Below are positions 13,808 through 44,338 of a DNA stretch of 64,000 bases, one piece after another. The stretch's first letter is position 1. Every line of letters starts with the position of its first letter. The position numbers were made by a program, and so were the translations under genes. Below the pieces are notes generated by a model. The model had not been told where the DNA came from, made no database searches, and worked only from the letters and a program-made list of their open reading frames with translations. Source of the DNA: Rivularia sp. MS3 (GTDB taxonomy: Bacteria > Cyanobacteriota > Cyanobacteriia > Cyanobacteriales > Nostocaceae); contig JAHCMI010000018.1 of assembly GCA_019192545.1 (NCBI GenBank), positions 1 through 64,000 on the forward strand, read 5' to 3'.

Positions 13808-15994
13808 TTATTTAGTTACAAGTTTTCCTCCGGGGCGTTGAACCATTACTTCCCTTAACCGTCGCTTGGCTTTGGGATCGATGCCAAAAATGCGTATGTA
13901 GTCGTTATTATGTTCGACTAAACATGCTTCTACGGCGGCAATTGCTTCTGCCATATCTTCTATTTGATGTCCTGCGTAACTGTTCCAAGAACCCGTGCGG
14001 AATCGACGCTGGTCTACGTATTCTATACCAATATGGTTTCCTGATGCCAAGATTTCCCGCATTTGTTCTAAAACTTCTAGCTCTAAGTGGGCTGAAGGTA
14101 TTTGTGCATTATTTGGATTACCTGTTCGGTAGGTATGACTATTTTCTACGGTTTGGTGGGGGTTACTGGTTGCCGTGTAGCTATGGGCTGCCGTGTGGGG
14201 ATGAGGAAATGGATCGGATTTTGGATATACGAAAGTGGAATCACTACTTTGTTGGCTGTAATCTGGAGTAGTTGATTCTGGATAATGAAATGTTGAACCA
14301 CCTAATTGTTGGTTGGGAGTTACCGTTTCTGGATAATGAAATGTCGAACCACCTAATTGTTGGTTGGGAGTTACCGTTTCTGGATAATGAAATGTCGAAC
14401 CACCTAATTGTTTGTTGATAGTAGTTGATTCTGGATAGCGGAATGTTGAACCACCTAATTGTTTTTTGGGAGCTACTGTTTCGGGATAGCGAAAAGTAGA
14501 ATCTGCCTGAATTTTTTCTGTGGGATATATTTCTTGTGTGGGTGGATAATGGAAAGTCGAACCACCGACTTCATTGGGATCTTGAATTATAGTTCCCATT
14601 ACTGCTTTCTTGGTTTTATAATCAATGCCAGCTACGCGCACGTAGTCGTCTGTATGCTTAATTAAACATCTTTCTAAATCTCCAATTGCATCTGCCATAT
14701 CATCTATTTCGTGAGTGGAAAATTTTTGCCAATCACCTTTACCAAATTTGTCTTTGCTGGCATATTCGATGCTGAGATGATTGCCCGATGCCAAAATTTT
14801 CTGCATATAGCTGAGTATTTCAGGCCCAACATGGGTTGATGCTGCGGGTGTATTCTGGTTTAAGCTGTTGGGGTTTTGACCTAAACTACGGTTTCTGCCA
14901 GTTCCCGATTTACTAGATGGAATATCAGGTATATGCACTGGTTCCGCTTGTGCTTGATAGCTGGGTCTGGCATGATAAGTTGGTAATGGTTCGCCGTCAA
15001 AATTTGCTGTCGGTCTGGCTTGATAAGTTGGTAAATTAGCGTCAAAATGCGAGGTAGGTCTTGCTTCGTATACTGATGTCTGTGCAGGCTGGGGTACAAA
15101 ATACTTTTGATGGCGTAGGGCACCACGGTTGTATTCTTCTACCAAATGCGAATTGTCTACCCGTTGCTGTTCCTCAACCATCAAGTTAGCTACTTCCATC
15201 AAATCGGATAAACCAAACTTGGGTTTTTGGAAGGATGGAATATTGTTACTGTTGACTACCTGTGAAGAAACTTTATCTACTCCTTTATTGTGGATAAACC
15301 GACGGATTTGTTCGTCATATATCCGCGATCGCAATGCACTGTAGAAATCAACGGCTTGATTGGCGAAATTATCTACAAGTTGCTCAACATCTTGCTTTGA
15401 CAATCCATCTTCACTAAAAATTCCCGCGACGATGCCAATTTTATCTTCTCTTGTCGGCTCCCAATAAAATTTATCCATCCTGCCGTCGCGAATCAAGGGA
15501 GCATATAAAGTAGAAAAATCATTTCCCGTAACGATAATTGGCACGCGGTGTAGAGGTGTAGAATCATAACTCCCCGGTAGCTGCACATCGGTGGGATTAT
15601 CCGCAATATTCATCAATGTGGCGTTTACTAATTGCGTATTCACCGTATACTGCGTTCCTTCGTCAAAACGTCCAGCACCTGCATCGAGATCGTTAATCAT
15701 CAACACGCACATTTTGCCGCGCACCTTAATTAATTCCGCCGTTTCCCGATATCGCAAGCGAATTAAACGAGCCGGATCTCCGGCATCGGGACTTTCTAAT
15801 TCACCCCCAGAAATATGAGTTACATCCACACCCATTTTCTGGAACACCAATTCGCATTGAAAAGATTTTCCTTCGCCTTTACGCCCGTGAATACCCAAAA
15901 TTAAAGGTACTCGCACTTTAGGCAAATCGAGATAATTTTTAGTAATGTGAACGGAAAGTTTATCTTGAAAACGAGGAGAAATATAGTAGCTCAT
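13808..15994 (-). CDS. rca: RuBisCO activase with two SSUL domains and a repeat linker
   Basis: The AAA+ ATPase that remodels inhibited RuBisCO to release sugar phosphates. Residues about 1-290 are the AAA+ module with Walker A GRKGEGKS (37-44), Walker B LMINDLDAG (98-106) and sensor region VPIIVTGNDF. Two RuBisCO-small-subunit-like (SSUL) domains follow, at about 391-473 and 640-721, both with ILASGNH and the second with RRFRTGSW as in CcmM. Between them, residues 475-600 carry seven STF(H/R/V)YP motifs. An earlier linker (305-345) repeats ARPT..FD. At 728 residues it is far longer than the usual about 410-430 with one SSUL. In Nostocales rca lies a few genes downstream of rbcLXS; here the gap is 17 kb. 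The SSUL domains should tether it to RuBisCO or carboxysomes. Confidence 0.93.
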   Translation of the reverse strand: MSYYISPRFQDKLSVHITKNYLDLPKVRVPLILGIHGRKGEGKSFQCELVFQKMGVDVTHISGGELESPDAGDPARLIRLRYRETAELIKVRGKMCVLMINDLDAGAGRFDEGTQYTVNTQLVNATLMNIADNPTDVQLPGSYDSTPLHRVPIIVTGNDFSTLYAPLIRDGRMDKFYWEPTREDKIGIVAGIFSEDGLSKQDVEQLVDNFANQAVDFYSALRSRIYDEQIRRFIHNKGVDKVSSQVVNSNNIPSFQKPKFGLSDLMEVANLMVEEQQRVDNSHLVEEYNRGALRHQKYFVPQPAQTSVYEARPTSHFDANLPTYQARPTANFDGEPLPTYHARPSYQAQAEPVHIPDIPSSKSGTGRNRSLGQNPNSLNQNTPAASTHVGPEILSYMQKILASGNHLSIEYASKDKFGKGDWQKFSTHEIDDMADAIGDLERCLIKHTDDYVRVAGIDYKTKKAVMGTIIQDPNEVGGSTFHYPPTQEIYPTEKIQADSTFRYPETVAPKKQLGGSTFRYPESTTINKQLGGSTFHYPETVTPNQQLGGSTFHYPETVTPNQQLGGSTFHYPESTTPDYSQQSSDSTFVYPKSDPFPHPHTAAHSYTATSNPHQTVENSHTYRTGNPNNAQIPSAHLELEVLEQMREILASGNHIGIEYVDQRRFRTGSWNSYAGHQIEDMAEAIAAVEACLVEHNNDYIRIFGIDPKAKRRLREVMVQRPGGKLVTK
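14280..14590 (-). repeat. In-frame tandem repeat inside rca, mostly 51-bp units
   Basis: Units of 51 bp encode GGSTF(H/R)YPE plus eight linker residues. Neighbouring units near 14285-14410 are almost identical at DNA level. Outer units are diverged. This indicates recent expansion by recombination or slippage in frame. Confidence 0.85.
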
Positions 15995-19475: not shown

Positions 19476-20003
19476 ATGTCATACCAATTTAGTTTCCTAC
19501 AAGTTTTTGCAGGGTACGATTTTGTAGGAAGTAGGTTATTTGCTACTTTGAATCGAAACGAACTGTTACAAAGTTTACGTCGCTGTTTGCGGGTAGATTT
19601 TTATCGGCAAATAGAAACTTTGTTATTAGTGGATACGAGCAAACATTCAATTCATATCTGCTACAGGTTAAAGTTTTTTCGCCAAATGTTCTTTAATTGC
19701 TTTGCTATAAAGTATGCAACACTGGATCTAAGGTGGCTTTATAGGATTGGTGAGAAATTTAAGCCTCTACAAACCCAGTATTCCTGGCATTTTAGACAAC
19801 ATCTTAAAGAGTCTTCGAGTGACTGCAATAGAAGTTATATATTTGACAATTACATAGCTAAATTCCTATGTAAATATTTGTTACGTGTAGAGCTTTCCAA
19901 AAATAAAAAAATAGCTTTATGGGAAGGAAGCTTTACTGGCGAATTGCATTCACTTCTTAAGTGCAAAGCAAAGTATATCAATTGCTTGGGTTTATCTAGA
20001 TAA
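19476..20003 (+). CDS. Hypothetical protein upstream of the C39 exporter
   Basis: A 175-residue frame ending 20 bases before the exporter gene. It is rich in Phe, Tyr, Leu, Cys and basic residues (LLQSLRRCLRVDFYRQIETLLLVD; HICYRLKFFRQMFFNCFAIKY). No signal peptide, known motif or family is recognised. Only a weak AGAG-type SD precedes the ATG. Its length in AT-rich DNA and its spacing to the next gene favour a real gene; its odd composition argues against. If real it could be the first gene of the secretion operon. Confidence 0.35.
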   Translation: MSYQFSFLQVFAGYDFVGSRLFATLNRNELLQSLRRCLRVDFYRQIETLLLVDTSKHSIHICYRLKFFRQMFFNCFAIKYATLDLRWLYRIGEKFKPLQTQYSWHFRQHLKESSSDCNRSYIFDNYIAKFLCKYLLRVELSKNKKIALWEGSFTGELHSLLKCKAKYINCLGLSR

Positions 20004-20023: not shown

Positions 20024-23000
20024 ATGGGAACAATGCTGAATGTATGCTCCCAGAAGGAGCTGCGTGAAAAGATATTCGCTATTTTGGGCGAAAATCTCGA
20101 AGAGTCAGAATTAGAAAGCTGTTTGAAGAGTTTAGAGATAATTGATTCAGAAGCGACAAAGCTTTTTTGGCAAGCAACAGAAGCTCAACCGGGTATTTAT
20201 GTTGTGCTTGAGGGTAGGGTTCGTATTCTGGATAATTCAGATAATTTAATTGCAACTGTTTCCTCGGGCGCAGCTTTTGGGGAGCAGAGTTTATTTAACG
20301 AGCAAGCTTTTCTCTTTTTAGCTGCTAAAGCTTCAACATCTGTAAAGCTTTGTTTTATTCCAGGTGCAATTCTGTCCGATTTGATGGCTAGTAACCCTCA
20401 AGTTAAAGATAATTTGTGCAAACGGGCTGAATTTTGGGATTTATTGCTGGTATGTCGTCAAAACTCCGAACTTCCTAGCAATATCTCTGTGGAAAATATG
20501 TTTAAAGCCTTATTTTTATTTGAGCGCTATCAAATTAAATCAGGGCAGAATATTTCTGAATTACATTCAAATTGCAAGATATTATTGCTGCGACAAGGTG
20601 AATTAAAAACTGCGGGGGGTGAAACCTTCGTACCGGGTAAAATTTATAGCAACCTGACTGAAAAACTGCAAGTAACTCAATCATCTATTGCTTATAGATT
20701 GAAAAATGCTGATTTAAATGCAGCTTTAGAAAAATGTCCGCAATTGGATAGATGGTCTAACCCATCACGGGCTTTACCCTCTACAAAATCTCGAAACAGT
20801 GTCAATACTTGGGTAAAACCATCCGGCAATAATAACGATCGCAAAGTGATCCCGTTTCCTTCCCAAGGAAAGCAGGAACAAGACAAGCGCGTATTATTTC
20901 CTTCACCTAAAGTCAAAGCCAAGCAATTTTGGCAGAGTTTTACTAAAACCTATCCTTTCTTTGCTCAGCAGAGTGGAAGTGATTGCGGTGCGGCTTGTTT
21001 GGTAATGATTGCGCGGCATTGGGGGCAACGTCTTAGCGCTAATCGCGTCAGAGAAATTGCCAACGTTAACCGGGAGGGGGCATCTTTAAGAAGTTTGGCT
21101 GCTGCTGCCGAAAGTGTTGGCTTTGCTTCTCGCCCGGTTAAAGCAACTCTGGATAAGTTGGCGCAGCAAACTTTACCGGCTGTAGTTCATTGGGAAGGTA
21201 GACACTACATTGTTGTTTATGAAATCACTCCTAAAAAAATAATTGTTTGCGATCCTGCTATCGGGCAGCGTAGTTATAGCCATAGTGAATTCAAAGCTAA
21301 ATGGACTGGTTACGCTTTGTTGCTACAGCCTACAGTTAAGCTCAAGGATAATCAAGGCAAAAGTACCGGGCTGTGGAAATATTTAGAGCTAGTCAAACCC
21401 CACTGGAAAATACTTTTAGAAATTTTCGTTGCTTCATTAGTAATTCAAGTATTTGGATTAATAACGCCGCTGTTTACTCAGTTGCTTCTAGATAAAGTCA
21501 TAGTTCAAGGAAGCATCGTCACTTTAAATGCTGTTGGTTTGGGATTAATAATTTTCGGATTATTCCGCATTGCTGTGGATGCTGTACGGCAGTATTTATT
21601 GTCACATACTGCTAATAGAATCAGCGTTTCTATGCTTGTAGGGTTCCTCAAACATACCTTTCGCTTACCTTTGAGTTACTTCGAGTCTCGTTATGTTGGT
21701 GACATCACTTCTCGTATCCAAGAAAACCAGAGCATCCAAAGTTTTCTCACCGGCGAAACCCTGTCAATTATATTGGACTTGCTGACAGTCATCGTCTACA
21801 TGGGAATGATGTTTTGGTATAACTGGCAGCTGGCTATTTTAGTACTGCTGATTGTGCCTCCGTTCTTTATTTTGGCATTAGCGAGTACCAGTATTCTGCG
21901 TAAAATGTCGAGAGAGATATTTAATGCCAGTGCCGAACAAAGCAGTTATTTAATTCAATCGCTGACAGGAATTCGTTCTGTACGCTCGATGGCAATTGAA
22001 CAGACAGTGCGATGGCGTTGGGAGGAGCTGCTGAACCATTTAATAAAAATTGATTTTAGGGCAGAAATAATCGGATTAAGATTGCAAATTATCAGTTCGA
22101 GCATTGACACAATTATGACTACAGGGTTGCTGTGGTATGGCTCCTACTTAGTAATTGATGGTCAACTTACTATCGGACAATTAATTGCTTTTAATATGTT
22201 GTTGGGTAATGTAATCAGTCCCTTCAAGCGATTGTCTTCGGTATGGAATGATTTTCAAGAGATACTGATTTCTGCCGAACGTTTAAACGATGTTTTGGAA
22301 GCCGAACCGGAAGAAGATTTACTTTTAAAACCCCGCAAACCCATATCTAAACTTCGCGGCTACATTCGCTTTGAGAACGTAACTTTCAGATATCACCCAG
22401 AAAGCGAGAAAAATGTCTTAGAGAATCTTAACTTTGAGATTCATCCAGAGCAGATGGTAGCTGTTGTCGGACGTAGCGGTTCGGGAAAAACTACCCTTTC
22501 AAAACTGATTTTGGGTTTATATCCTGCCACAAATGGAAAAGTGATTGTTGACGGTCACGATGTATCTAAAATTGCTTTGAAATCACTCCGCCGACAAATT
22601 GGTGTTGTAGACCAAGATACATTCTTATTTGGTGGAACTATCAGGGAAAATATTAGTTTGGCTCATCCAGAGGCGACTTTAGAAGACATTATTGAAGCCG
22701 CCCGTTTAGCAGGAGCAGACGAATTTATACAGCAATTACCGATGGGCTACGAAACTCAAATTGGTGAAGGTGGAGGAATGCTGTCTGGAGGGCAGCGTCA
22801 GCGTTTAGCGATTGCTCGTGCTTTATTAGGTAATCCCAGGTTTTTAATTTTTGATGAAGCCACTAGTAGTTTGGATGCCGAATCCGAAAGAATTATTCAG
22901 AACAATTTAAAAACAATTCTTAAAGGACGTACTAGTTTAATAATTGCTCATCGTCTTTCTACCGTGCGTAATGCCGATTTATTACTAGTTTTAGACCAAG

Positions 23001-23095
23001 GTGTATTAGTAGAAAGCGGTACTCACGATGAATTGATAGCGAAAAAAGGTCATTACTACTACCTAAATCAGCAGCAATTATCGCAAGTAGGGTAA
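20024..23095 (+). CDS. CNBD-like / C39 peptidase / ABC exporter fusion
   Basis: A peptidase-containing ABC transporter (PCAT) that should cut double-glycine leaders and export peptides. Of 1023 residues, about 30-130 form a cyclic-nucleotide-binding-like domain (GIYVVLEGRVRILD, GAAFGEQSLF). About 305-430 is a C39 protease with QQSGSDCGAA (Cys321), His394 and Asp410, all intact. Residues about 455-750 hold six membrane helices. The nucleotide-binding domain has Walker A GRSGSGKTT (from 816), signature LSGGQ (from 920) and Walker B Asp944-Glu945. Length is about 300 more than a plain PCAT because of the N-terminal region. HlyD and isomerase genes follow, then the precursor peptides. Start chosen at the first ATG; a second at 20033 is possible. 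Confidence 0.93.
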   Translation: MGTMLNVCSQKELREKIFAILGENLEESELESCLKSLEIIDSEATKLFWQATEAQPGIYVVLEGRVRILDNSDNLIATVSSGAAFGEQSLFNEQAFLFLAAKASTSVKLCFIPGAILSDLMASNPQVKDNLCKRAEFWDLLLVCRQNSELPSNISVENMFKALFLFERYQIKSGQNISELHSNCKILLLRQGELKTAGGETFVPGKIYSNLTEKLQVTQSSIAYRLKNADLNAALEKCPQLDRWSNPSRALPSTKSRNSVNTWVKPSGNNNDRKVIPFPSQGKQEQDKRVLFPSPKVKAKQFWQSFTKTYPFFAQQSGSDCGAACLVMIARHWGQRLSANRVREIANVNREGASLRSLAAAAESVGFASRPVKATLDKLAQQTLPAVVHWEGRHYIVVYEITPKKIIVCDPAIGQRSYSHSEFKAKWTGYALLLQPTVKLKDNQGKSTGLWKYLELVKPHWKILLEIFVASLVIQVFGLITPLFTQLLLDKVIVQGSIVTLNAVGLGLIIFGLFRIAVDAVRQYLLSHTANRISVSMLVGFLKHTFRLPLSYFESRYVGDITSRIQENQSIQSFLTGETLSIILDLLTVIVYMGMMFWYNWQLAILVLLIVPPFFILALASTSILRKMSREIFNASAEQSSYLIQSLTGIRSVRSMAIEQTVRWRWEELLNHLIKIDFRAEIIGLRLQIISSSIDTIMTTGLLWYGSYLVIDGQLTIGQLIAFNMLLGNVISPFKRLSSVWNDFQEILISAERLNDVLEAEPEEDLLLKPRKPISKLRGYIRFENVTFRYHPESEKNVLENLNFEIHPEQMVAVVGRSGSGKTTLSKLILGLYPATNGKVIVDGHDVSKIALKSLRRQIGVVDQDTFLFGGTIRENISLAHPEATLEDIIEAARLAGADEFIQQLPMGYETQIGEGGGMLSGGQRQRLAIARALLGNPRFLIFDEATSSLDAESERIIQNNLKTILKGRTSLIIAHRLSTVRNADLLLVLDQGVLVESGTHDELIAKKGHYYYLNQQQLSQVG

Positions 23096-23158
23096 GTACT
23101 AGAGAACAGTCAACAGTGAGCAGTCAACAGTTATCGTCAATTACCAATGTAGAATCTC

Positions 23159-24709
23159 ATGACACACACACCGTTAAAAAATCCAGAACCGGATGAGTAT
23201 CAATCCTATGTTTCTAACTTTGTTGATACTTCTAATCCATCTATAGACGAACGCGATGGCAAGCAAGAAGATGTTACTGAGGAAAATAGCGGAATATTTT
23301 ATGGTACGGAAGAACTTCTAGATGCTTTACCCAGAGTTTGGACGCGCTCTTTATTGTACGTACTCGTAGTCTTTGCTGCTGTTGGCGTACCTCTATCTAT
23401 GGTTTCTAGAGTCGATGAGACTGGTACGGCTAAGGGGAAAGTCGAACCGTTAGGTGCTACCAGAAAATTAGATAGTATCGCCGGTGGTATAGTCAAAGCT
23501 GTCAAAGTCAACGAAGGAGATAAGGTACAAAAAGGACAAATTTTGTTAGAGCTTGATTCTAAAGTTTTAGAGTCAGATATCAACGAAGCTAAAGAAAAAC
23601 TATCTGGATTTAAAAAGCAGCAATCGCAGCTTGAACTTTTAAAGAATCAACTACAGTTAACGATTGATACTCAAACGCAACAAAATAAATCTCAAATTTT
23701 AGAAAAACAAGCACAAGTTAGTCAGGCACAGACGGACTTACATGCGAAACAAAGTAATTACAATCTGCAAAAGTTAGAAAAAAAAGCTCAAGTTGAACGA
23801 GCAAAACAGCAGATTAAAATCTTTGAAAACGAACAACAGGCTGCTCAGAATCGTTTGTTTATAGATACAAAGCAGGTAGAGCGTTTTAGCAAACTTCTTA
23901 AAGACGGCGCAGTTTCTGCTTCTCAAATTGACGGGTTGAAAAAAGAACAGCAAGAAAGTAAGCGACTTTATCAAAAAGCTGCATCCGATATCAAACAAGC
24001 AGAGTTGAGCTTAACTGAAGAATTTAATAACTATTTAGCAACAATGAATCAGTTAGAGTCTGATATCGAACAAGCACAACTCCGCTTACAAGAAGAAAAG
24101 AGTAATTATCAAAGTTTAGTTAATGCTGGAAAACTGGCATTACTCAAAACTCAAGAGCAATTTAAAGATTTACAAGCACAACTCGATTTATTAAAATCGC
24201 AGATTGCTCAAACCAGCACTCAAATTCAATCCTTAAATATCCAATTGCAACAAAGAACAGTGCGATCGCCTATTGATGGAATAATTTTTGAGTTACCTGT
24301 ATCCAAGCCGGGACAAGTATTACAGCCGGGACAAAGAATTGCCCGCATTGCCCCTAAAGGTAAAGATATGGTTATCAAAGCTCAGATGCCAAGTTCGGAA
24401 ACAGGTTTCTTGAAAGTGGGAATGCCGGTAAAAATAAAATTCGATGCTTATCCGTTTCAGGAATACGGAATAGGTAAAGGAAAAGTCAAATGGATTTCTC
24501 CAGACTCGAAACAAACTGCCCAAGGAGGTGCAGAAATTTATGAATTAGAAATTGCTTTAGATAAACCCTATATCCAAAATGGCGATAAACGTATCAACTT
24601 AGCGCCAGGGCAATCAGCTACTGCGGAAGTCATCGTTCGTCAGCGTCGCGTTATTGATTTACTTTTAGATCCGTTTAAGAAGTTGCAAAAAGGAGGATTG
24701 GAACTTTGA
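23159..24709 (+). CDS. HlyD-family membrane-fusion protein
   Basis: The periplasmic adaptor linking the ABC exporter to an outer-membrane channel. 516 residues: cytoplasmic N-terminus, one transmembrane helix (about 63-82, LLYVLVVFAAVGVPLS), a split lipoyl-like domain (GGIVKAVKVNEGDKVQKGQ at about 104-122), a very long alpha-helical hairpin (about 135-365), and the returning beta barrel (VRSPIDGIIFELPVSKPGQV). It follows the exporter by 63 bases and is likely in the same operon. No TolC gene is in the window; cyanobacteria usually encode one elsewhere. Confidence 0.92.
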   Translation: MTHTPLKNPEPDEYQSYVSNFVDTSNPSIDERDGKQEDVTEENSGIFYGTEELLDALPRVWTRSLLYVLVVFAAVGVPLSMVSRVDETGTAKGKVEPLGATRKLDSIAGGIVKAVKVNEGDKVQKGQILLELDSKVLESDINEAKEKLSGFKKQQSQLELLKNQLQLTIDTQTQQNKSQILEKQAQVSQAQTDLHAKQSNYNLQKLEKKAQVERAKQQIKIFENEQQAAQNRLFIDTKQVERFSKLLKDGAVSASQIDGLKKEQQESKRLYQKAASDIKQAELSLTEEFNNYLATMNQLESDIEQAQLRLQEEKSNYQSLVNAGKLALLKTQEQFKDLQAQLDLLKSQIAQTSTQIQSLNIQLQQRTVRSPIDGIIFELPVSKPGQVLQPGQRIARIAPKGKDMVIKAQMPSSETGFLKVGMPVKIKFDAYPFQEYGIGKGKVKWISPDSKQTAQGGAEIYELEIALDKPYIQNGDKRINLAPGQSATAEVIVRQRRVIDLLLDPFKKLQKGGLEL

Positions 24710-24789
24710 GGAAATATAGCCAAGAAAAGGAGAGAGAACAATAAATTCTTAACTACTAACTATCAACCACTAACAACCATTAACAAATT

Positions 24790-25572
24790 ATGTCAAACGA
24801 ATTGCATATATCGGCTACGGAAATAATTCATAACTTAAAAATTAGCTGTCAAATTCCTGATGTGATTGAGGCAATCGCCAAACGCAAGGTTATCGTCGAT
24901 GCTGCCGCAGAAGCAGGTATCGTTGTTGAGGATGAAGAATTACAGCAAGAAGGTGACAGACTGCGGTTTGCCAAAAAACTTGTTAAGGCAACGGAAACTT
25001 GGGCTTGGCTGAAAAAGCATCATCTTACCCTTGATAATTTTGAAGAATTAGCTTTTAACAGCGTACTTTCTCAAAAATTAGCTCATCATCTGTTTGATTC
25101 TAAAGTCGAGCCTTTGTTTTATCAAAACCAACTTGATTACGTTGCTGCTGTTACCTATGAAGTGATTATTGATGAGTGGGATCTAGCTTTGGAATTGTTT
25201 TTTGCAGTGCAAGAGTTAGAAGTAACTTTTCTTCAAATTGCCCGCGAATATATTTCAGATCCAGATTTACGTAGGGCTGGAGGGTTTAAGGGCGTTCAGC
25301 AGCGTACTGATTTCCGCCCAGAAGTTGCTGCTGCGGTGTTTGCGGCTTCTCCCCCCGGAATCATTAAACCGGTTACAACTCCTAAAGGCATACATCTAAT
25401 TTGGGTTGAAGAAATTATTCAACCAAAACTAGACGAGCAGCTACATGAAAAAATCATCATGGAGTTGTTTGATTGTTGGTTACAACAACAAATCGACCAG
25501 ATGGAAATTTCTACTCAATTAGATAGATTTGTTGATACTAACACACCTGAAAAAGTATTGAATCCAGTTTGA
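24790..25572 (+). CDS. Parvulin-type peptidyl-prolyl isomerase of the secretion operon
   Basis: 260 residues. An N-terminal SurA/PrsA-like helical domain is followed by a parvulin-type domain (about 140-240) with FLQIAREYISDPDLRRAGG and PKGIHLIWVEEI, which match the rotamase fold. No signal peptide is visible, so it probably acts in the cytoplasm. Proteins of this type are commonly found beside C39 exporters in cyanobacteria; helping precursor folding or presentation is inferred. The start is preceded by AACTA/TAACAA tandem repeats rather than an SD. Confidence 0.85.
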   Translation: MSNELHISATEIIHNLKISCQIPDVIEAIAKRKVIVDAAAEAGIVVEDEELQQEGDRLRFAKKLVKATETWAWLKKHHLTLDNFEELAFNSVLSQKLAHHLFDSKVEPLFYQNQLDYVAAVTYEVIIDEWDLALELFFAVQELEVTFLQIAREYISDPDLRRAGGFKGVQQRTDFRPEVAAAVFAASPPGIIKPVTTPKGIHLIWVEEIIQPKLDEQLHEKIIMELFDCWLQQQIDQMEISTQLDRFVDTNTPEKVLNPV

Positions 25573-25814
25573 TTTTTTCAGTTCTATAATCATTACTTCT
25601 TCAATATTTATATTTATGTTTATGGAGGTAGTAATAATAAACTATTTAGCTATTTTTTCCAAAAAATATTATAAATAATTTACCAAATATGCTTTTAAAA
25701 CTATAAAAAAAGCATTAAAAAAGGTTAAGAGTCTAGGCTTTTAACCCTAAAGGCGCTGGAAATAATAAGCAAAAATAAATTTTAAAAATAATTAGAAAAA
25801 AACTAAAAAAAGAC
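25573..25814. other. AT-rich leader of the precursor-peptide genes
   Basis: No ORF. A hairpin GGTTAA(12 nt)TTAACC lies at about 25719-25742 and could end the exporter transcript or act as a regulatory stem. Confidence 0.45.
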
Positions 25815-25842
25815 TTGACTTTTATTTTAAATGTAGTAAATT
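25815..25842 (+). promoter_or_regulatory. Putative sigma70-type promoter for precursor peptide genes
   Basis: TTGACT (25815-25820) and TAAATT (25837-25842) are separated by 16 bases. The first precursor ATG lies about 75 bases downstream, with an AGGAGA SD. Based on consensus only. Confidence 0.4.
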
Positions 25843-25918
25843 AGTAAGTGTGAGGGGCGAAACAAAACCTCTCATAAAATCCCAGAAAAAATTTATCAGT
25901 TTCCAGGAGAATTACATC

Positions 25919-26218
25919 ATGTTAATTTCTGACTTAAACAATCTAGAAACCGTACAAGGTAACGATGTTGTTGGTGGATATCGCAACGTTAACAAGAAAG
26001 AAAAATTATCCAGAGACATCAAGAATAGTCTTAAGAATGACGTTAAGTCTATAGTAAGAATTAGTGGTAATGCTGCTGATGCTCAAGCTGATGCTTCTGC
26101 TTTAGGTCGCAACACCGTAACCAATACCTACACCGATACCACCGTTGTACAGGGTAAAGGTTCTTCTTCCTCATCCGTTTCTACATCTGCTACAAGTGGG
26201 TTCAAAAGATTTCACTAG
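25919..26218 (+). CDS. Double-glycine precursor peptide, Ala/Ser/Thr-rich core
   Basis: A 99-residue secreted-peptide precursor. The leader MLISDLNNLETVQGNDVVGG ends in Gly19-Gly20, the expected C39 cut site. The mature part is first basic (KKEKLSRDIKNSLKNDVKS), then carries an alternating pattern ADAQADASALGRNTVTNTYT, then a Ser run and TSATSGFKRFH. ATG at 25919 was chosen over upstream codons because CCAGGAGA stands 9 bases before it and a leader then begins properly. The same ADAxAxAxALG pattern occurs in the peptide at 29877-30182. Activity unknown; no Cys, so not a disulfide or lanthionine peptide. Confidence 0.85.
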   Translation: MLISDLNNLETVQGNDVVGGYRNVNKKEKLSRDIKNSLKNDVKSIVRISGNAADAQADASALGRNTVTNTYTDTTVVQGKGSSSSSVSTSATSGFKRFH

Positions 26219-26446
26219 AACTATAAAGTTCTAACTCTAGTTCTAGTATTTTCGTAAGTTTATTACAGATAAGTACTAGACCTAGTGTATCGGGAGTTAG
26301 TAAATATTCGATTGATTGCTTCTCCCGATATAAACGATATAAATAGCAATTTGCCGGCAATTTTGTACAAAGTTTATATCGCTGAAAATTTCAATAATAT
26401 TGACTTGTTTTTAGCGATGTAAAATAATAATTGTTTTGAGCCTATT

Positions 26447-26746
26447 ATGAGCAAGATAAGAATTCACGAACTAAGTTTCTGTGAAAGGGAAGATAGCGAA
26501 CTTCATAATGTGGTGGGAGGCGAAAGTGCTTTCTTTACAACATATTATGACACTATAAGTTTGTCAGAAGAACGACCTGACTATTACTATTTCTCAGAAG
26601 ACCTATTATATCCTTCAGATACGTACACTGATTCTGTGCAAGAAACTGTTGTTAATAAAGATGGATATTACGGGCAAGCGAGAGTAGTAAAGGGTAGAAA
26701 AAATGGTAGAAAATTTGTTCGTTCTTCGGCAAGTGCCAGAGTTTAA
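26447..26746 (+). CDS. Double-glycine precursor peptide with YPSD motif
   Basis: 99 residues. The leader MSKIRIHELSFCEREDSELHNVVGG ends at Gly24-Gly25. The core is tyrosine-rich and acidic (TTYYDTISLSEERPDYYYFSEDLLYPSD) and its tail is basic (VVKGRKNGRKFVRSSASARV). YPSD at residues 55-58, followed by TYTD, recalls the KYPSD of microviridin cores but lacks the Lys and the proper acid spacing. It lies between another precursor and the microviridin genes. A hairpin terminator or attenuator follows it. Function unknown. Confidence 0.75.
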   Translation: MSKIRIHELSFCEREDSELHNVVGGESAFFTTYYDTISLSEERPDYYYFSEDLLYPSDTYTDSVQETVVNKDGYYGQARVVKGRKNGRKFVRSSASARV

Positions 26747-26854
26747 TAAAATTAGTTGCTTGTAACATCGCATGATTAATATCAGGTGTATCTAATTTCA
26801 TGACTCAGGGAATTTTTTTGAATTAACATATTTGGGAACCTTTTCAATTTTATG

Positions 26855-26885
26855 AGCTATTAAGTCTAACTTAATAGCTTTTTCA
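26855..26885 (+). terminator. Rho-independent terminator or attenuator
   Basis: A perfect 10-bp stem, AGCTATTAAG / CTTAATAGCT, with a 5-nt loop and then TTTTTC. It separates the second precursor from the poly-Ser peptide and microviridin genes, so expression downstream may be reduced or separately promoted. Confidence 0.8.
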
Positions 26886-26912
26886 TAAATAAAAAATAAC
26901 GGTGTTAAAAAC

Positions 26913-27116
26913 ATGGAACAAGAAGAAATTGTAGTTAGGAAGATAGTTTCGGCTGACGGCAAAGTAATAACTCAATCAACAAGTAAAGCTAAAGCCGTTG
27001 GAGATAATGTAAGGGTTAGAACCAGGATTTCTTCTAGCTCCAGTAGCTCTAGCAGTTCCTCTAGCTCTAGTAGTTCGAGTAGTAGTTCTTCTAGCTCTAG
27101 CAGTTCTAGTTCTTAA
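26913..27116 (+). CDS. Leaderless peptide with 28-Ser C-terminal tract
   Basis: 67 residues. The first 39 read EIVVRKIVSADGKVITQSTS and then KAKAVGDNVRVRTRI; residues 40-67 are all serine. The serine codons are a mixture of TCN and AGY types. There is no double-glycine leader, and an in-frame stop lies at 26886-26888, so none is hidden upstream. The SKAKAVGDN stretch loosely matches the AxALGRN pattern of the neighbouring precursor, suggesting a related core without leader. The reading frame may also be a decayed or unusual gene. No function known. Confidence 0.55.
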   Translation: MEQEEIVVRKIVSADGKVITQSTSKAKAVGDNVRVRTRISSSSSSSSSSSSSSSSSSSSSSSSSSSS

Positions 27117-27178
27117 TAATTACATAAGAATATTTAAAGCGACTAAGACTTGTATTTATCTTTAGCAAGGAGCGACAT

Positions 27179-27514
27179 ATGTCCCAGAAAGATAATAAAA
27201 AAAATAACTCTAATGCAGTACCATTTTTTGCTCGTTATTTGGAAGGGCAGTATTGCGAAGATTTATCTGAAGAAGAGATGAATGAGGTTTATGGAGGCTT
27301 ATCAAAACGAGAAAAAATATCAAAAGAGCATCCCCGTAACTTAAAAGATATAGTCATGACTATGAAATATCCTTCGGATAACGAAGATAGTTCTCCTAAG
27401 CATCCTCCTATTGCAATGACTAAAAAATATCCTTCTGATGCTGATGAAGCGATGACAAACAAGTTTCCATCAGACGGTGATGATGAATTACCTCCACACT
27501 ATACAAGATGGTAG
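27179..27514 (+). CDS. mdnA: Three-core microviridin (graspetide) precursor with Gly-Gly leader
   Basis: 111 residues. The leader contains PFFARYLEGQ (15-24), the helix recognised by microviridin ATP-grasp ligases, and ends EVYGG (Gly39-Gly40). Three cores follow: TMKYPSDNED (61-70), TKKYPSDADE (81-90) and TNKFPSDGDD (93-102), each with the Thr, Lys, Ser donors and Asp/Glu acceptors of a tricyclic microviridin. Acceptor acids vary between cores. An ideal SD, AAGGAG, precedes the ATG. Both ligases lie immediately downstream. Microviridins are usually serine-protease inhibitors. Multi-core precursors are known in cyanobacteria. Confidence 0.95.
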   Translation: MSQKDNKKNNSNAVPFFARYLEGQYCEDLSEEEMNEVYGGLSKREKISKEHPRNLKDIVMTMKYPSDNEDSSPKHPPIAMTKKYPSDADEAMTNKFPSDGDDELPPHYTRW

Positions 27515-27594
27515 GTAAAACCTAGAAATAGACATAAGCTTTATCAAGTAGTAAGGATAATTGCTGTATAACGTTTAATTGTTTAGGAATCTTT

Positions 27595-28581
27595 ATGCAT
27601 CTATCTCGTGACGTTGTCCTCTTAATCACTCACAGCGGTGATTTCTATACAGTAGACAGAGTAGCAGAAGCGTTATCTAGACTTGGCGCAAATCCGTTTC
27701 GTCTTGATACAGATATGTTTCCTTTATCGATAGAGCTAGCAGCACATATTAATCACTCGGGAAGCAAGCATTGCTTAAAGTATGGCGAAGAATATTTAAA
27801 TATAGAGCGGGTGCAAGCTGTGTGGATGCGACGTATTTGGCAACCGCAATTGACTAAAGAATTAGCTCCACAATTTCAAACAGCCTGTATTCGAGAGTCG
27901 GTAACAACCTTAGATGGTTTTTGGGACAGTCTAAAAGAAGCCCATTGGGTAGATGATTTACAACGGATAAATATTGCAGAAAATAAGCTGCGTCAGCTGA
28001 GGGTAGCGCAAGAAATAGGTTTGAATATTCCTCAAACTCTTGTAACTAACAATCCTGCCCAAGCAAGGGAGTTTTTCTTAAAGCTAGAAGGAAAAGTAGT
28101 TGTGAAATTGTCAACTCCTCTTTCTTATAGTATGAAAGGCTCCTCATTTTTTCTTTTCACTAGCAAAGTAAAACAGGAAGATTTATTAGATGCAGAGACA
28201 TTAAGTTATTGCCCGATGATTTTTCAAGAGCAAATACCCAAGCAGCGAGAGCTGAGAATTGTTTTTGTAGATGGTAATTTTTTTGTAGGAGCGCTTGATG
28301 CATCTCAATATGCAGCTTCAGCAATTGACTGGCGATGTGCTGATGACAAGAATTTTGTATGGCAACCGTTTCAGCTACCGGAAGAATTAACTGTTAGTTT
28401 AAATTCATTTATGAACAAGTTTGGGCTTTTGTTTGGAGCCTTTGATTTTATTCAGACTCCCTCGGATGAATATATTTTTTTAGAAGTTAATCCCACGGGA
28501 GAATGGGGCATGTTAGAAAGAGATTTACAACTTCCTATTAGTAGTGCGATCGCAAATGCACTGCTCAAAAGTCAAAAATAA
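27595..28581 (+). CDS. mdnB: ATP-grasp ligase, MdnB/MvdC-like (omega-amide forming)
   Basis: 328 residues of the graspetide ATP-grasp family. It opens VVLLITHSGDFYTVDRVAEA and has FRLDTDMFP, VWMRRIW, and the nucleotide/metal-binding end FLEVNPTGEWGMLERDLQ. By its resemblance to MdnB/MvdC it should make the Lys-to-acid amide that closes the third ring of each core after the esters are made. It follows the precursor by 80 bases with SD AGGAA. It is about 35-40 percent like the next gene by eye, so the two arose by duplication. Confidence 0.88.
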   Translation: MHLSRDVVLLITHSGDFYTVDRVAEALSRLGANPFRLDTDMFPLSIELAAHINHSGSKHCLKYGEEYLNIERVQAVWMRRIWQPQLTKELAPQFQTACIRESVTTLDGFWDSLKEAHWVDDLQRINIAENKLRQLRVAQEIGLNIPQTLVTNNPAQAREFFLKLEGKVVVKLSTPLSYSMKGSSFFLFTSKVKQEDLLDAETLSYCPMIFQEQIPKQRELRIVFVDGNFFVGALDASQYAASAIDWRCADDKNFVWQPFQLPEELTVSLNSFMNKFGLLFGAFDFIQTPSDEYIFLEVNPTGEWGMLERDLQLPISSAIANALLKSQK

Positions 28582-28650
28582 AAAAATTATATTATCATTC
28601 GCTTCTGAATTTTTAACAATTACCTTTAACCTTTAACCTCTTATCTCTTC

Positions 28651-29670
28651 ATGACTATTTTAATTATTACTCATAGTCAGGATAACGAAAGCATTTCTTC
28701 AGTAATGGCAGCTATCGAAGCTCGGGGAGAAAAAGCATTTCGTTTCGACACTGATAAATTCCCCACGCAAACCCGGTTAGATATTTCTTATAGTAACGGT
28801 AGTCGAAATATTATTATTGCTAACGAGCAACAGAAATTAAATTTAAAAGAAGTATCTTCTGTGTGGTATCGACGGATTGCTATTGGCGCAAAGATTCCCT
28901 ACAGCATGAACAAACAGCTTAGGCAAGCTTCAATTCAAGAATCCCGCACTACAATTGCCGGAATGATTGCTAGTATCGAAGCATTTCATCTCGATAAAGT
29001 TGTAAATATTCGTCTGGCTGAAAACAAACAGCTACAATTACAAGTTGCTGAGGAAATAGGTTTAAAGATTCCTCGCACCCTAATTACAAACAATCCAGAA
29101 ACAGTAAAGCAATTCGCCCAAGAATGTCAGCAAGACATTGTAACAAAAATGCTTTCTTCTTTTGCTATCTACGATAATTTTGGGCAGGAAAAAGTTGTTT
29201 TTACAAATCCGGTGACATCAGAAGATATTAATAACCTTGATGGGCTAAATTTATGTCCGATGACTTTTCAAGAGAAAATCCCTAAAGCTCTGGAATTACG
29301 GACAATTATTGTAGGAAAAAATCTATTTACTGCTGCGGTTGATTCTCAAGCCGTGCATAAGGCTCGTTACGATTGGAGAAGGGAAGGGCTAGCTTTAATT
29401 AATACTTGGCAACCTCACAATTTACCTAAATATGTTGAACAAAAGCTTCTAAAGCTAATGGCTTATTTTCAGTTAAACTACGGTGCAGTTGATATTATTT
29501 TGACACCGGATAATGAATATATATTTCTAGAAGTTAACCCAGTTGGAGAATTTTTCTGGTTGGAACACTCTCCAGGATTACCAATTTCTCAAAGCATTGC
29601 AGAATTACTGGTAAGCTGTTCGCATAACCTAAAATCATTATTCTCAGAATCCCAATTTATTGTTGGTTAA
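28651..29670 (+). CDS. mdnC: ATP-grasp ligase, MdnC/MvdD-like (omega-ester forming)
   Basis: 339 residues. It opens TILIITHSQDNESISSVMAA, then FRFDTDKFPT, VWYRRIA, CPMTFQEKIPKALELR and FLEVNPVGEFFWLE, very close to characterised MdnC. MdnC-type enzymes first form the two ester rings (Thr to Asp and Ser to Glu) after binding the PFFARxLE leader helix. It acts in the cytoplasm with ATP and magnesium. A bidirectional terminator follows. No MdnD-type GNAT acetyltransferase is adjacent, unlike several described clusters. Confidence 0.9.
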   Translation: MTILIITHSQDNESISSVMAAIEARGEKAFRFDTDKFPTQTRLDISYSNGSRNIIIANEQQKLNLKEVSSVWYRRIAIGAKIPYSMNKQLRQASIQESRTTIAGMIASIEAFHLDKVVNIRLAENKQLQLQVAEEIGLKIPRTLITNNPETVKQFAQECQQDIVTKMLSSFAIYDNFGQEKVVFTNPVTSEDINNLDGLNLCPMTFQEKIPKALELRTIIVGKNLFTAAVDSQAVHKARYDWRREGLALINTWQPHNLPKYVEQKLLKLMAYFQLNYGAVDIILTPDNEYIFLEVNPVGEFFWLEHSPGLPISQSIAELLVSCSHNLKSLFSESQFIVG

Positions 29671-29768
29671 ACAACCTGCCTAATATATTTTTATAAACAT
29701 AAATTGAGTTTATTTTATTTGCTTAAAAATGCTACAATAAATTAGATAAAATAAAATTAATCAAAATG

Positions 29769-29805
29769 AAATCCCTTGTTGATTTAGATTAATAACAAGG
29801 GATTT
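29769..29805. terminator. Bidirectional terminator between convergent peptide genes
   Basis: A perfect 12-bp stem, AAATCCCTTGTT / AACAAGGGATTT, with a 13-nt loop and A/T-rich flanks on both sides. It separates mdnC (+) from the minus-strand precursor. Confidence 0.85.
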
Positions 29806-29876
29806 ATAATATGTATGATTTGAGAACACTTTTCAATTTAATATTAGATAGCGATAAATTTTAGAACACTGGTTGT

Positions 29877-30182
29877 TTAACCAATTTTTGACCAATAAGA
29901 AATACTCGTATCAGAAGAACGAGAAATATTTTTTCCATCTCTTGCAGTTGATATAGCTCTTCCAGAAGCGCGTGAAGATGAAAATAAATCATCTTTACGG
30001 GTAGATGCTGAAGTTTTAGTAACAGTCTTAGTTATTTTTCCCAGAGCGGCAGCTTCAGCATTTGCATCGGCTATTCCAGGACCAGCTTTACTATTAGCGT
30101 TAGCTGTAGTTATTACACCTCCTCCCATAATGCAACCTGAAAATTCAGCAAAATCTAGAATCCCTAAATCTCTTATAATCAT
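29877..30182 (-). CDS. Double-glycine precursor peptide, opposite strand
   Basis: 101 residues. The leader MIIRDLGILDFAEFSGCIMG ends in a Gly-Gly-Gly (20-22). The core has ADANAEAAALGKITKTVTKT and a Ser/Arg-rich end (SSSRASGRAISTARDGKNIS). The pattern matches the peptide at 25919-26218, so the two are diverged members of one family flanking the microviridin genes. SD GTAGGAGA is 8 bases before the ATG. Export by the C39 transporter is inferred. Confidence 0.85.
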   Translation of the reverse strand: MIIRDLGILDFAEFSGCIMGGGVITTANANSKAGPGIADANAEAAALGKITKTVTKTSASTRKDDLFSSSRASGRAISTARDGKNISRSSDTSISYWSKIG

Positions 30183-31989: not shown

Positions 31990-32796
31990 TCATTTGCTTT
32001 TGGCTTTCAACCAATTTACACCGAAATCAACAGCGCCTCTAACAGCAAAAAATTTCGTATCAGCCGAACCAACTTTTGAATTTTTGACACAACCGGTTTT
32101 TTCAAAATTTTTACCTAAATCACTAAAAGAGTTCCCATCAAAATCAATATCAAGATAAGTCTTCCAAACTTTTTTTCCCGCTTCTAAAATTGGCGCTCCG
32201 TAATTTACCGTTTCAATATCACCTTTTCTGTATTCTGCTAAATGAAAAGCTGTACAACTATCGTATTGGGTTCCTAATAAAAGTACGTAACCGTTCAAAT
32301 CGTAAAGCCGAGCCAGAGGTGATTCTTCGCCAAGAGAATAATTCAATGAATGGTTGTTGATAATAGTTTCAGCTTCCAGCCCCCAAGCAGCAAAAGAAAA
32401 ACTTGGGTGAGAACTTCGTAAAACGTTTTCACAACTGCGGAAAACTTCAACAATTTTCCCCATATTTCTTGTGGGAGTTATTCTGGCATCGTAAGCTGGC
32501 ATTGTATCGCGAATTATCTGCCACCATTCATAAGGAACCGGTGGAGCTTGCCAAGGTTCGGGATCTGAATAATCGGTACTATGAGTGGGCATTACCAAAG
32601 TACCATTTGACGTAACTACATCCATTAAAGCTTGAATTACTGTAACCGCACCACCGCAAACCCATCCCAAAGAACTCAAGGAAGAATGTACAATTACCGT
32701 TATTCCTGGAGTCAAACCAGCATTTATTAAGTCTTGTGTTAAAGTCTTGCGAGTGCGGGGGAATTGCGATTTTGCAATAGCTTCTGCTTCCGTCAT
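31990..32796 (-). CDS. AAC(3)-family N-acetyltransferase
   Basis: 268 residues of the aminoglycoside 3-N-acetyltransferase superfamily, with the acetyl-CoA-binding HSSLSSLGWVCGG, then GTLVMPTHSTDYSDP, HPSFSFAAWG and GEESPLARLYDLNGYVLLLG. Family members acetylate aminoglycosides or other amino compounds such as phosphonate products. As a chromosomal cyanobacterial copy the native substrate is more likely a metabolite than an antibiotic. It lies between the peptide locus and rbcLXS. The ATG follows about 20 bases of AT-rich DNA without strong SD. Confidence 0.9.
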   Translation of the reverse strand: MTEAEAIAKSQFPRTRKTLTQDLINAGLTPGITVIVHSSLSSLGWVCGGAVTVIQALMDVVTSNGTLVMPTHSTDYSDPEPWQAPPVPYEWWQIIRDTMPAYDARITPTRNMGKIVEVFRSCENVLRSSHPSFSFAAWGLEAETIINNHSLNYSLGEESPLARLYDLNGYVLLLGTQYDSCTAFHLAEYRKGDIETVNYGAPILEAGKKVWKTYLDIDFDGNSFSDLGKNFEKTGCVKNSKVGSADTKFFAVRGAVDFGVNWLKAKSK

Positions 32797-33462: not shown

Positions 33463-33804
33463 TTAGTATCTGTAACCGCCTTGGTTTGGCTTGTTAACAA
33501 TAAAGCTAAGAACTTGACATTGCTTAACGTTATCAAAACCAACTACACGAATGTAGCAGTTAGGAAACTGAGAGCGACAACCTTGAACTTCAGCTAATAC
33601 CTCTTGTGGGCTTCTAGCATTGAACAAAGGTAACTTCCACATTGTCCAATACATTTCTGTAGGTTCGGAAGTTTCGTTAAATTCAATTGCAGGGAAATAA
33701 CCCTGATCTAATACATATTGAATTTGACGAGCGATTTGAGCATCGTTTAAAGGTGGTAAGTATGAAAGGGTTTCGTACCGACGCTCTTTTGGTAAAGTTT
33801 GCAT
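33463..33804 (-). CDS. rbcS: RuBisCO small subunit
   Basis: 113 residues, normal for cyanobacteria. It opens [19 protein letters not shown] and has [28 protein letters not shown] and the usual C-terminal tail. It caps the L8 core of form I RuBisCO in the carboxysome. Third gene of the rbcLXS operon, after a 152-base spacer of heptamer repeats. Confidence 0.98.
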
Positions 33805-37930: not shown

Positions 37931-38698
37931 ATGGCTATTACTATCCAAAAGTTAATTCAATATAAGCAGCAGCAGCGTCCGATTGTGGTGTTGACTGCTT
38001 GGGATTATCTAATCGCTCAGTTATTAGATGATAATGGGGTGGATTTAATTTTGGTTGGTGACTCGATGGCTGTGGTTTTGGGTTATCAAAATACTCTACC
38101 GATTTCTTTGGAAGAAATGATATACCATGCAAAAGCTGTAAGACGTGGAGTCAAGCAAGCTTTAATGGTAGTAGATTTACCATTTATGACTTATCAAGAA
38201 AGTGTTTCTCAAGCGATGCATTCGGCGGGAAGGGTATTAAAAGAAACCGGAGCCTCTGCTGTCAAATTAGAAGGCGGATATCCGGAAATGATAGATACCG
38301 TGTCTCGTTTGGTACGTGCTGGAATTCCGGTAATGGGACATGTTGGTTTAACGCCACAGTCGATAAATCAAATCGGTTTGCGTCAGAAAGGTAAAACGCA
38401 AGAGTCGCGAAACCGGATTTTACAAGAAGCGATCGCCTTAGAACAAGCAGGTGTTTTTTCTATAGTTTTAGAGCATATTCCCACAGATTTAGCATTAGAA
38501 ATTACTCAGAAAATTAGCATTCCTACCATTGGTATTGGTGCGGGATCTGATTGTGATGGACAAGTTTTAGTCACTTCCGATTTACTTGGACTTTCGGAAA
38601 AACAGCCACCATTCGCCAAAGTTTATACACATTTACGCGAGACAATTACTCAAGCGGTAGGGCAGTTTAGTCAGGAAGTTAGAGAAGGAAAGTTTTGA
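37931..38698 (+). CDS. panB: 3-methyl-2-oxobutanoate hydroxymethyltransferase
   Basis: 255 residues. The TIM-barrel enzyme that transfers a hydroxymethyl group from methylene-tetrahydrofolate to alpha-ketoisovalerate, the first step of pantothenate and CoA synthesis. Motifs: [30 protein letters not shown] (metal-binding Asp), AVKLEGG and [18 protein letters not shown]. Standard length. STRR heptamers run to within a few bases of the ATG. Confidence 0.96.
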
Positions 38699-38699
38699 A

Positions 38700-38825
38700 C
38701 AGTTAACAGCGAACAGTTAACAGTAGCAAGTAGCAAGTAGCAAGTAATAAGTAGTTAAGAATAATAAATTACCAATTACCAATTACCAATTACCAATTAA
38801 CAATTACCTATTACCCATTAACTAT
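38700..38825. repeat. STRR block downstream of panB
   Basis: AACAGTT, AGCAAGT and ACCAATT/ACCAATTA heptamer runs, each repeated three to five times. The rest of the gap to 39121 has no gene; it includes a short CCGTAG...AAAGGCTTTTTT hairpin near 39046-39065. Confidence 0.8.
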
Positions 38826-39121
38826 TCGGTAAATACTTTTACATCAAGCGACTTTTGCAGTATTTTTCGCTTTCTGAATTTTTAATAAATAGATGAACTA
38901 GGGGCGCTATTCATGTTATTGGTGGATTATGTCTACCCTATGAGGAAAACGCTATAGGTCTCCTAACAAATCTCTCATCACGTGACCTACAGGTCGGCGG
39001 ATAATTCTCATCGGATATTAAAAATAGTAATTTGCACGCTAATGGCCGTAGTAAAGGCTTTTTTGCATTCAAGACCTACATTTTCCCCTACAACAACAAG
39101 TAAGCTTTAAAATAAGCAGTT

Positions 39122-40702: not shown

Positions 40703-40705
40703 TCA

Positions 40706-40920
40706 ATTTTGGATTTTAGATTTTGGATTTTGGATTATTGCTATTAGTAAGTTGATTGCCTATATCGCTAGTTATTAATAGCAGTTAAGAATCGCCTTCG
40801 GGCTTTCTCCTACAATCTAAAATCTAAAATCTGTCTTGCAAAGTTTGGTACGAAGAACATCTGTGCGCCAACTTTTGTCTTCGACACGCTACGCGAACGC
40901 AAAATCTAAAATCTAAAATC
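40706..40920. repeat. Heptamer repeats in inverted arrangement before prmA
   Basis: GATTTTG/GGATTTT units at 40712-40738 and the complementary AAAATCT units at 40815-40833 and 40899-40921. The last run directly abuts the prmA ATG. Confidence 0.75.
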
Positions 40921-40922
40921 TG

Positions 40923-41843: not shown

Positions 41844-41994
41844 TTAGTAATCAGTGAACAGTGAACAGTGAACAGTGAACAGTTGCGAGTAAATAAATTA
41901 ATAAATGATTCTTGTAGGTGTGTTACGGCTCGACATCATACCTCACCCTGCCTTCCGGGCACCCCTCTGCTTATAAAATTGAGGGGGAAGAAGT

Positions 41995-42126
41995 GTAGTG
42001 GTTTGTCCTATTAATAATGACGGGTAAGGGCAGGGAGGGGGAGAGGGGGAGAGTGGGGGAGTGGGGGAAGAAAATATTTTTTATATTTACGATATGCCCA
42101 TCAAAACTAACGGGACAGACCAGTAG
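41995..42126. mobile_element. G-rich MITE-like element (family D), copy 2
   Basis: Ends GTAGTGGTTTGTCC and the imperfect mirror GGGACAGACCAGTAG. Inside, 42037-42067 repeats the four runs of five G found at 8761-8791, with identical spacers. It is followed by a GAAAATATTTTTTATATTTACG tract also seen at 52155-52180. No ORF. Confidence 0.65.
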
Positions 42127-42135
42127 ATTTAACAG

Positions 42136-42726: not shown

Positions 42727-42750
42727 AAGATATCTGAAGCGGCATATCAT

Positions 42751-43564: not shown

Positions 43565-44338
<774 letters not shown>

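Follow-up and report, generated by a model that had tools for sequence, protein, structure and literature searches.

A conserved gene island in Rivularia sp. MS3 combines a C39 exporter, several double-glycine peptides and a microviridin cassette

Gene content of the locus

We analysed a stretch of 64,000 nucleotides from the cyanobacterium Rivularia sp. MS3 (the window; contig JAHCMI010000018.1 of assembly GCA_019192545.1, which comprises 9.19 Mb in 174 contigs), in which an exporter, several double-glycine (GG) peptides, a poly-serine (poly-Ser) protein and a microviridin cassette lie side by side. An earlier interpretation of this DNA from the letters alone (the sequence-only reading) had named these parts as one locus. 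All of them were found within positions 20,024–30,182, and their families were confirmed by NCBIfam and Pfam. The features are as follows (aa, amino acids; dN/dS, ratio of nonsynonymous to synonymous substitution rates).

20,024–23,095, + strand: long-type peptidase-containing ABC exporter (cNMP-C39-ABC), 1023 aa; Pfam domains and catalytic residues
23,159–24,709, + strand: HlyD-family adaptor, 516 aa; TIGR01843
24,790–25,572, + strand: PpiC-type peptidyl-prolyl isomerase, 260 aa; PF00639 over cut-off, TIGR04500 below cut-off
25,919–26,218, + strand: GG1, family A double-glycine peptide, 99 aa; dN/dS 0.21–0.35
26,447–26,746, + strand: GG2, family B double-glycine peptide with the leader ELSFCE...VVGG, 99 aa; dN/dS 0.20–0.30
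26,913–27,116, + strand: poly-Ser protein, family D, without GG leader, 67 aa; dN/dS of the first 39 codons 0.20–0.35
27,179–27,514, + strand: mvdE, class II type microviridin precursor with GG and three cores; NF033738, Inhibitor_I10
27,359–27,388, 27,419–27,448 and 27,455–27,484, + strand: the mvdE cores; motif match
27,595–28,581, + strand: mvdC, ATP-grasp ligase; TIGR04185 over cut-off
28,651–29,670, + strand: mvdD, ATP-grasp ligase; TIGR04184 over cut-off
29,877–30,182, − strand: GG4, family C double-glycine peptide, 101 aa; dN/dS 0.34–0.49

GG1, GG2, the poly-Ser protein and GG4 gave no match over cut-off in NCBIfam or Pfam. We nevertheless regard all four, together with mvdE, as genes because their dN/dS values against three congeners lie between 0.16 and 0.49 (for the poly-Ser protein, over its first 39 codons). 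GG1 was already present in the earlier list of open reading frames (ORFs), where it started at GTG 25,850; the most likely start is ATG 25,919.

The exporter contains cNMP_binding (PF00027), Peptidase_C39 (PF03412), ABC_membrane and ABC_tran domains, each above its Pfam cut-off, as well as the Walker A, signature and Walker B motifs, and its residues 305–1017 align with 4ry2, a solved bacteriocin transporter chain. The C39 peptidase had been described as intact, and Gln315, Cys321, His394 and Asp410 are indeed all in place. It is the single C39 exporter in the island. The adaptor matched TIGR01843 at 240.6 bits (cut-off 208.65). With cNMP, C39 and ABC parts in one protein, accompanied by HlyD and a rotamase, the locus has the features of the long-type clusters of Wang et al. 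(PMC3140520). The TIGR04500 family, which the isomerase matched below cut-off, is described as associated with ATP-grasp loci, mostly of actinobacteria (PMC8939145).

MvdE matched NF033738 at 80.4 bits (cut-off 26) and also Inhibitor_I10. Its leader contains PFFARYL at residues 15–21 and GG at residues 39–40, and is followed by the cores TMKYPSDNED, TKKYPSDADE and TNKFPSDGDD (pattern TxK[YF]PSDx[DE][DE]). MvdC and MvdD scored 498.8 bits against TIGR04185 (cut-off 425) and 532.2 bits against TIGR04184 (cut-off 475), respectively. A PFFARxL leader, several TxKYPSDxD/E cores, both ligases, a GG site and a C39 exporter together make this a class II microviridin locus.

Conservation of the island

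The sequence-only reading had suggested that the locus may be a multi-product system. In relatives, the genes stay together and the precursor genes are not scattered. The order exporter–HlyD–PpiC–GG1–GG2–poly-Ser–[mvdE–mvdC–mvdD]–GG4, with GG4 on the opposite strand, is kept across several genera. Two congeners (L029, L030) have the full order including the three mvd genes and the opposite-strand GG4, and a third, on a 7.3-kb contig (L031), has the same order minus the exporter; the island is also complete in Calothrix parasitica NIES-267 (L088). Other genera show the same order with extra C-type peptides and with or without mvd genes; named loci with poly-Ser come from Scytonema, Tolypothrix, Brasilonema, Nostoc and Moorena. 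Across 45 loci in which PpiC occurs together with one or more of the peptide families, we counted family A in 41, B in 35, C/E in 37, poly-Ser in 35, mvdE in 26 and mvdD in 23, where the mvd shares are biased, as loci were fetched partly for GG1, MvdE or MvdD matches, and are better taken from the genome census below. Seed families C and E are counted jointly because they drifted together and merged during the iterated search. This tally and, below, the MvdD tree, the leader and order tallies and the poly-Ser leader tally omit 17 named loci taken as copies of genomes already represented; they are undercounts, as five of the 17 (L099, L100, L106, L107, L108), and also L105, had no fetched counterpart.

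The census covered 145 genomes of the family, with PpiC places taken as the best 150 listed. It found poly-Ser in 49 genomes (59 places), family A in 85 and MvdD in 88, with MvdD over cut-off in 64 (77 places). For 55 of the 59 poly-Ser places, one of the best 150 PpiC places lay within 25 kb, and poly-Ser was on the same strand and downstream in all 55; MvdD over cut-off lay within 25 kb of 18. One of the same 150 PpiC places was within 25 kb of 20 of the 77 MvdD places, 16 of which also have poly-Ser; a place picked at random would be expected to have such a neighbour in ∼0.7% of cases. Among the poly-Ser places without a listed PpiC, the one in genome G390 has PpiC in the fetched stretch (L132), those in G318 and G448 have A/B/C peptides and no PpiC in the fetched stretch, and the match on contig C76 of G388 (E 4e-4, in a 1195-aa frame) is probably false.

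At the level of the class, poly-Ser matched in 15 of 242 genomes. The 13 poly-Ser places outside the family had PpiC in every case (13/13), a long exporter ORF in 12 and poly-Ser by our own profile in 11. Eleven such loci were fetched from outside the order, nine of them with poly-Ser by this profile.

The sequence-only reading had called the isomerase dedicated. A role confined to this product was not borne out, since the isomerase profile matches 144 of the 145 family genomes and islands both with and without mvd genes carry it; the isomerase belongs with the exporter, not with the microviridin.

The genome of Rivularia sp. MS3 itself has a second island on contig C47 (∼38,000–47,000; L028), with exporter, HlyD, PpiC, A/C-type, B and poly-Ser genes. 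Of the mvd genes, we recognised only what we read as remnants, namely a short stretch resembling mvdE (28.6 bits) and a fragment resembling MvdD (67.5 bits). Further along the same contig (63,048–64,652; L146), four family A matches stand in a row at ∼430-base spacing, next to another set of exporter, HlyD and PpiC genes; the alignment of each of the four matches runs across a TAA.

The microviridin cassette as an optional passenger

In all 21 loci that have both genes, mvdE lies 3′ of poly-Ser on the same strand. The microviridin cassette is an optional passenger with a single, constant position. We built a tree of 56 MvdD proteins, of which 22 belong to islands; 4 changes suffice to explain the island label, compared with 17.5 in shuffles. 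By this measure, the join between island and cassette is old or was made a few times, with losses. A single branch for all island-linked MvdD proteins was rejected, as three of the four changes are forced by well-supported branches.

Microviridin genes also occur elsewhere. In some other loci, mvd genes are accompanied by their own short-type C39 exporter and HlyD (confirmed with Pfam for L058), and in still others our own searches found no exporter in the fetched stretch. The only plasmid record matched by the window's precursor was a 168,338-base plasmid of Nostoc sp. UHCC 0870 (NZ_CP091915.1), which carries a microviridin-type precursor. Three of the 13 poly-Ser loci outside the family (L134, L141, L143) have an MvdD-like ATP-grasp frame beside poly-Ser, and mvdE was not found by our own profile in these fetched loci; other graspetide-like ligases may use the same islands.

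The double-glycine peptide families

Profile comparison showed that families A and C are related, both with their leaders (97.7%, E 2.5e-12) and without them (89.6%, E 1.9e-6), while B stands apart from both and has a leader of the LSFCE type. We scanned the peptides with a recognisable leader, dropping the others, and found a GG-type site in all of them (48 of family A, 37 of B and 51 of C), as well as in MvdE of 22/22 islands. Position −4 is hydrophobic in 95–98% of each family. A PFFAR-type motif was absent from the same peptides (0/48 A, 0/37 B, 0/51 C), which bears out the proposal that it is confined to a single cargo, the microviridin precursor. Alternation of Ala and Thr in the cores exceeded that of shuffled sequences (z >2) in 16 of 24 family A peptides, in 19 of 26 labelled E (GG4 included) and in one of two labelled C, compared with 1 of 20 B peptides and 13 of 200 control ORFs. 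The mature GG1, GG2 and GG4 peptides are 74–80 residues long, contain no Cys and have a grand average of hydropathy (GRAVY) of −0.44 to −0.80. Cleavage behind GG is predicted to give monoisotopic masses of 8433.34 Da for GG1, 8584.15 Da for GG2 and 8115.20 Da for GG4; the three-core microviridin, left in one piece and with nine waters lost, would have 8076.90 Da.

One way to read these peptides is as antimicrobials of a bacteriocin island, with the microviridin as a further defensive product. GG leaders are present, and the exporter plan, HlyD and rotamase fit groups I, II and VI of the clusters described as 'bacteriocin' (PMC3140520). Against this, GG1, GG2 and GG4 matched neither NHLP nor Nif11 nor any other bacteriocin family over cut-off in NCBIfam and Pfam, and the same databases recognised no modifying enzyme in the island besides MvdC and MvdD. 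The lack of Cys and the negative GRAVY values also speak against it, and isomerase relatives in nearly every genome of the family are spread more broadly than we would expect of an arms-race trait. No immunity gene was recognised either, though no search was aimed at one. We therefore consider a bacteriocin island unlikely.

The poly-Ser protein

The head of the poly-Ser protein is conserved (M1, I11, S13, D15, G16 and S24 are invariant in 11 sequences) and its C-terminal part is rich in Ser, which makes up at least 40% of it in 41 of 51 sequences (median 57%, minimum 0). The 28 Ser residues of the protein in the window are encoded by TCT (10), AGT (9), AGC (6), TCC (2) and TCG (1). This use of both Ser codon blocks suggests selection on the protein, although the same mixture could also arise by expansion of a unit that contained both.

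The poly-Ser protein as a cut-down GG precursor was rejected, since 0 of 51 sequences had an in-frame GG upstream of the core; in 33 of the 51, fewer than 25 codons separate the upstream stop from the core. An origin as an A, B or C core that lacks its leader was likewise rejected, with probabilities of 1–3% in profile comparisons. The poly-Ser profile did score above shuffled-column nulls with A (15.0; maximum 11.6 in 60) and C (13.9; 8.6 in 60), and its C-terminal part did so with B (13.6; 9.4 in 100). We claim no homology between poly-Ser and the cargoes, as B, the intended control, scored equally high (15.7). The papers listed in our literature searches, supplementary tables aside, gave no description of a serine-rich or poly-Ser partner of PpiC/HlyD/bacteriocin-type clusters. 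The poly-Ser protein, which has no leader, may be a cytosolic helper of the exporter or of its cargoes, a role that we hold to be somewhat doubtful.

Proposed working of the island

We read the locus as a conserved type I secretion island. Its gene order, its GG sites and the presence of just one adjacent exporter argue for one export system, and we consider it moderately likely that several unlike cargoes share this exporter. The cNMP-C39-ABC exporter, together with HlyD and PpiC, would cut precursors after the double glycine and export the remainder. Families A (GG1), B (GG2) and C (GG4) would be the standing cargoes. In some lineages, MvdC and MvdD would cyclise the three cores on the PFFAR-type leader, after which the same exporter would strip the MvdE leader and release a protease inhibitor along with the other cargoes. 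For another graspetide, the C39 exporter is described to cut the precursor after GG in vitro (PMC13039773), and the microcin V exporter to accept very diverse small cargo (PMC10231218).

As an alternating Ala/Thr pattern suits flat beta strands, we tentatively suggest that the A and C peptides may have a structural or surface role outside the cell, comparable to that of the EbfG biofilm proteins discussed below. It is also conceivable, if very unlikely, that the island builds an extracellular matrix and is widespread in this role among heterocystous cyanobacteria. In that case A and C would form beta fibres outside the cell, poly-Ser would act as a cytosolic anti-aggregation or loading factor, and co-exported microviridin would shield the new matrix from serine proteases. 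We know of no dedicated anti-aggregation or loading partner for such exporters.

Several observations weigh against a shared exporter. The pattern LSEEEMxxVxGG is confined to MvdE and missing from the A, B and C leaders, and the fraction with a hydrophobic residue at position −7 is 0.76 in MvdE, compared with 0.42 in A, 0.24 in B and 0.18 in C. With two leader types, one C39 domain must accept both. The GG of MvdE is no sign of this exporter, since it is retained in 37 of 38 non-island loci (picked by precursor match), and the three cores stay on one chain after the GG cut, while Pfam matches of the window ORFs submitted revealed no further protease. Furthermore, 57 of the 77 MvdD places have none of the best 150 PpiC places within 25 kb. 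As to a structural role, alternation of small residues in general is weaker (z >2 in 5/24 A, 14/26 E, 0/20 B and 5/200 controls), and the sequences scored are related, so that their scores do not count as independent tests.

The unlike leaders and the many MvdD places away from a listed PpiC would suit a locus of mere neighbours, in which the exporter serves GG1, GG2 and GG4, while the microviridin is handled otherwise or kept in the cell and the cassette is there by history. The second island of this genome, with its mvdE and mvdD remnants, does without the cassette, and class I microviridin leaders are described to be removed by a separate protease, NosP (PMC13039773). The constant position of the cassette and the clustering of island MvdD proteins on the tree argue against chance neighbourhood, and C39 exporters are reported to accompany class II precursors often (PMC13039773). 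We regard mere neighbourhood as rather improbable and retain the shared exporter as our preferred reading. Such a system could reveal whether one exporter takes both a cyclised inhibitor and plain peptides, and why microviridins are exported.

Neighbouring genes

Directly 5′ of the exporter lies a 175-aa ORF (19,476–20,003, + strand) without a Pfam match, whose relatives are also found 5′ of the exporter in L028, L029, L030 and L045. On the other side, a GDSL-like lipase/acylhydrolase gene (PF13472; 30,821–31,435, − strand) adjoins GG4, a position kept in L029 and L030. The window further contains a strong match to aminoglycoside 3-N-acetyltransferase (PF02522, 303 bits; 31,990–32,796, − strand), a RuBisCO small chain gene (33,463–33,804) and, at 13,808–15,994 (− strand), a protein that combines RuBisCO activase AAA parts with two stretches matching the RuBisCO small chain. 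An Rfam scan of the window gave a single match, a small signal recognition particle (SRP) RNA.

Comparison with known systems

The cNMP-C39-ABC plan is shared with HetC of Nostoc PCC 7120, which is described to need its peptidase residues for heterocyst formation (PMC10986499), and the leader of the A, B and C peptides resembles the KIxDLxYLEx10GG motif of HetP proteins (PMC3140520). The exported peptides might accordingly be messages between the cells of a filament. HetC as described differs in that its substrate is unknown and that neither a GG peptide gene nor a membrane-fusion gene is reported near hetC (PMC10986499), whereas HlyD is adjacent here. Mature cargoes of 74–80 residues are also long for signals. 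Poly-Ser islands occur outside the order (nine of the 11 fetched loci) and in a genome of Moorena, which is not known to form heterocysts. We consider a signalling role most unlikely.

The closest counterparts of the cassette are the class II microviridin clusters (AMdnA/AMdnC, Anabaena sp. PCC 7120; PMC5934393, PMC13039773, PMC7823629), described with a PFFAR-type leader, GG, several cores on one chain, two ATP-grasp ligases and a nearby C39 exporter with HlyD. Unlike these clusters as described, the island has a long-type exporter, a rotamase, three non-microviridin GG peptides, poly-Ser and a fixed order. Groups I, II and VI of Wang et al. (PMC3140520) likewise combine cNMP-C39-ABC, HlyD, a SurA-type rotamase and several precursors, with an average of 3.78 precursors per cluster in group II, where 58 of 87 precursors were only classed as 'Other'. 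The text of that paper, supplementary tables aside, does not name the A, B, C and poly-Ser families or the fixed order. We do not claim membership of group II, as its M16 peptidase was not found among the 20 window ORFs put to Pfam.

The sequence-only reading had held the system to be 'not described as such'. In part this went too far: GG-bearing multi-core microviridin precursors with C39 exporters are in print as class II (PMC13039773, PMC7823629), as are long-type C39 clusters with HlyD, rotamase (SurA) and several precursors (PMC3140520), so the island is not a new kind of system. What stands is the mixed island with its companion families. No such mixed island was described in the titles and starts of abstracts that our literature searches listed, though single peptides may well be listed somewhere. 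The companion peptides, among them a family with a serine run at its end, appear undescribed.

The island can also be likened to EbfG1-4/PteB of Synechococcus elongatus, where several small GG proteins are secreted with the help of a C39 exporter and EbfG1-3 are reported to form amyloid structures (PMC4997328, PMC9981879). Mature EbfG is reported to have no homologs in other cyanobacteria (PMC4997328), and the system as described has neither a poly-Ser protein nor a microviridin. Small GG peptides beside cyanobacterial C39 exporters have been counted since 2011, many of them unclassified (PMC3140520), and many short peptide genes at such clusters were left unclassed (PMC4558948); so far as the literature searched goes, function has been shown for the EbfG proteins alone. 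Here, the fixed order, the recurring cargo families and the leaderless poly-Ser partner allow such small ORFs to be treated as one defined system, open to dissection gene by gene.

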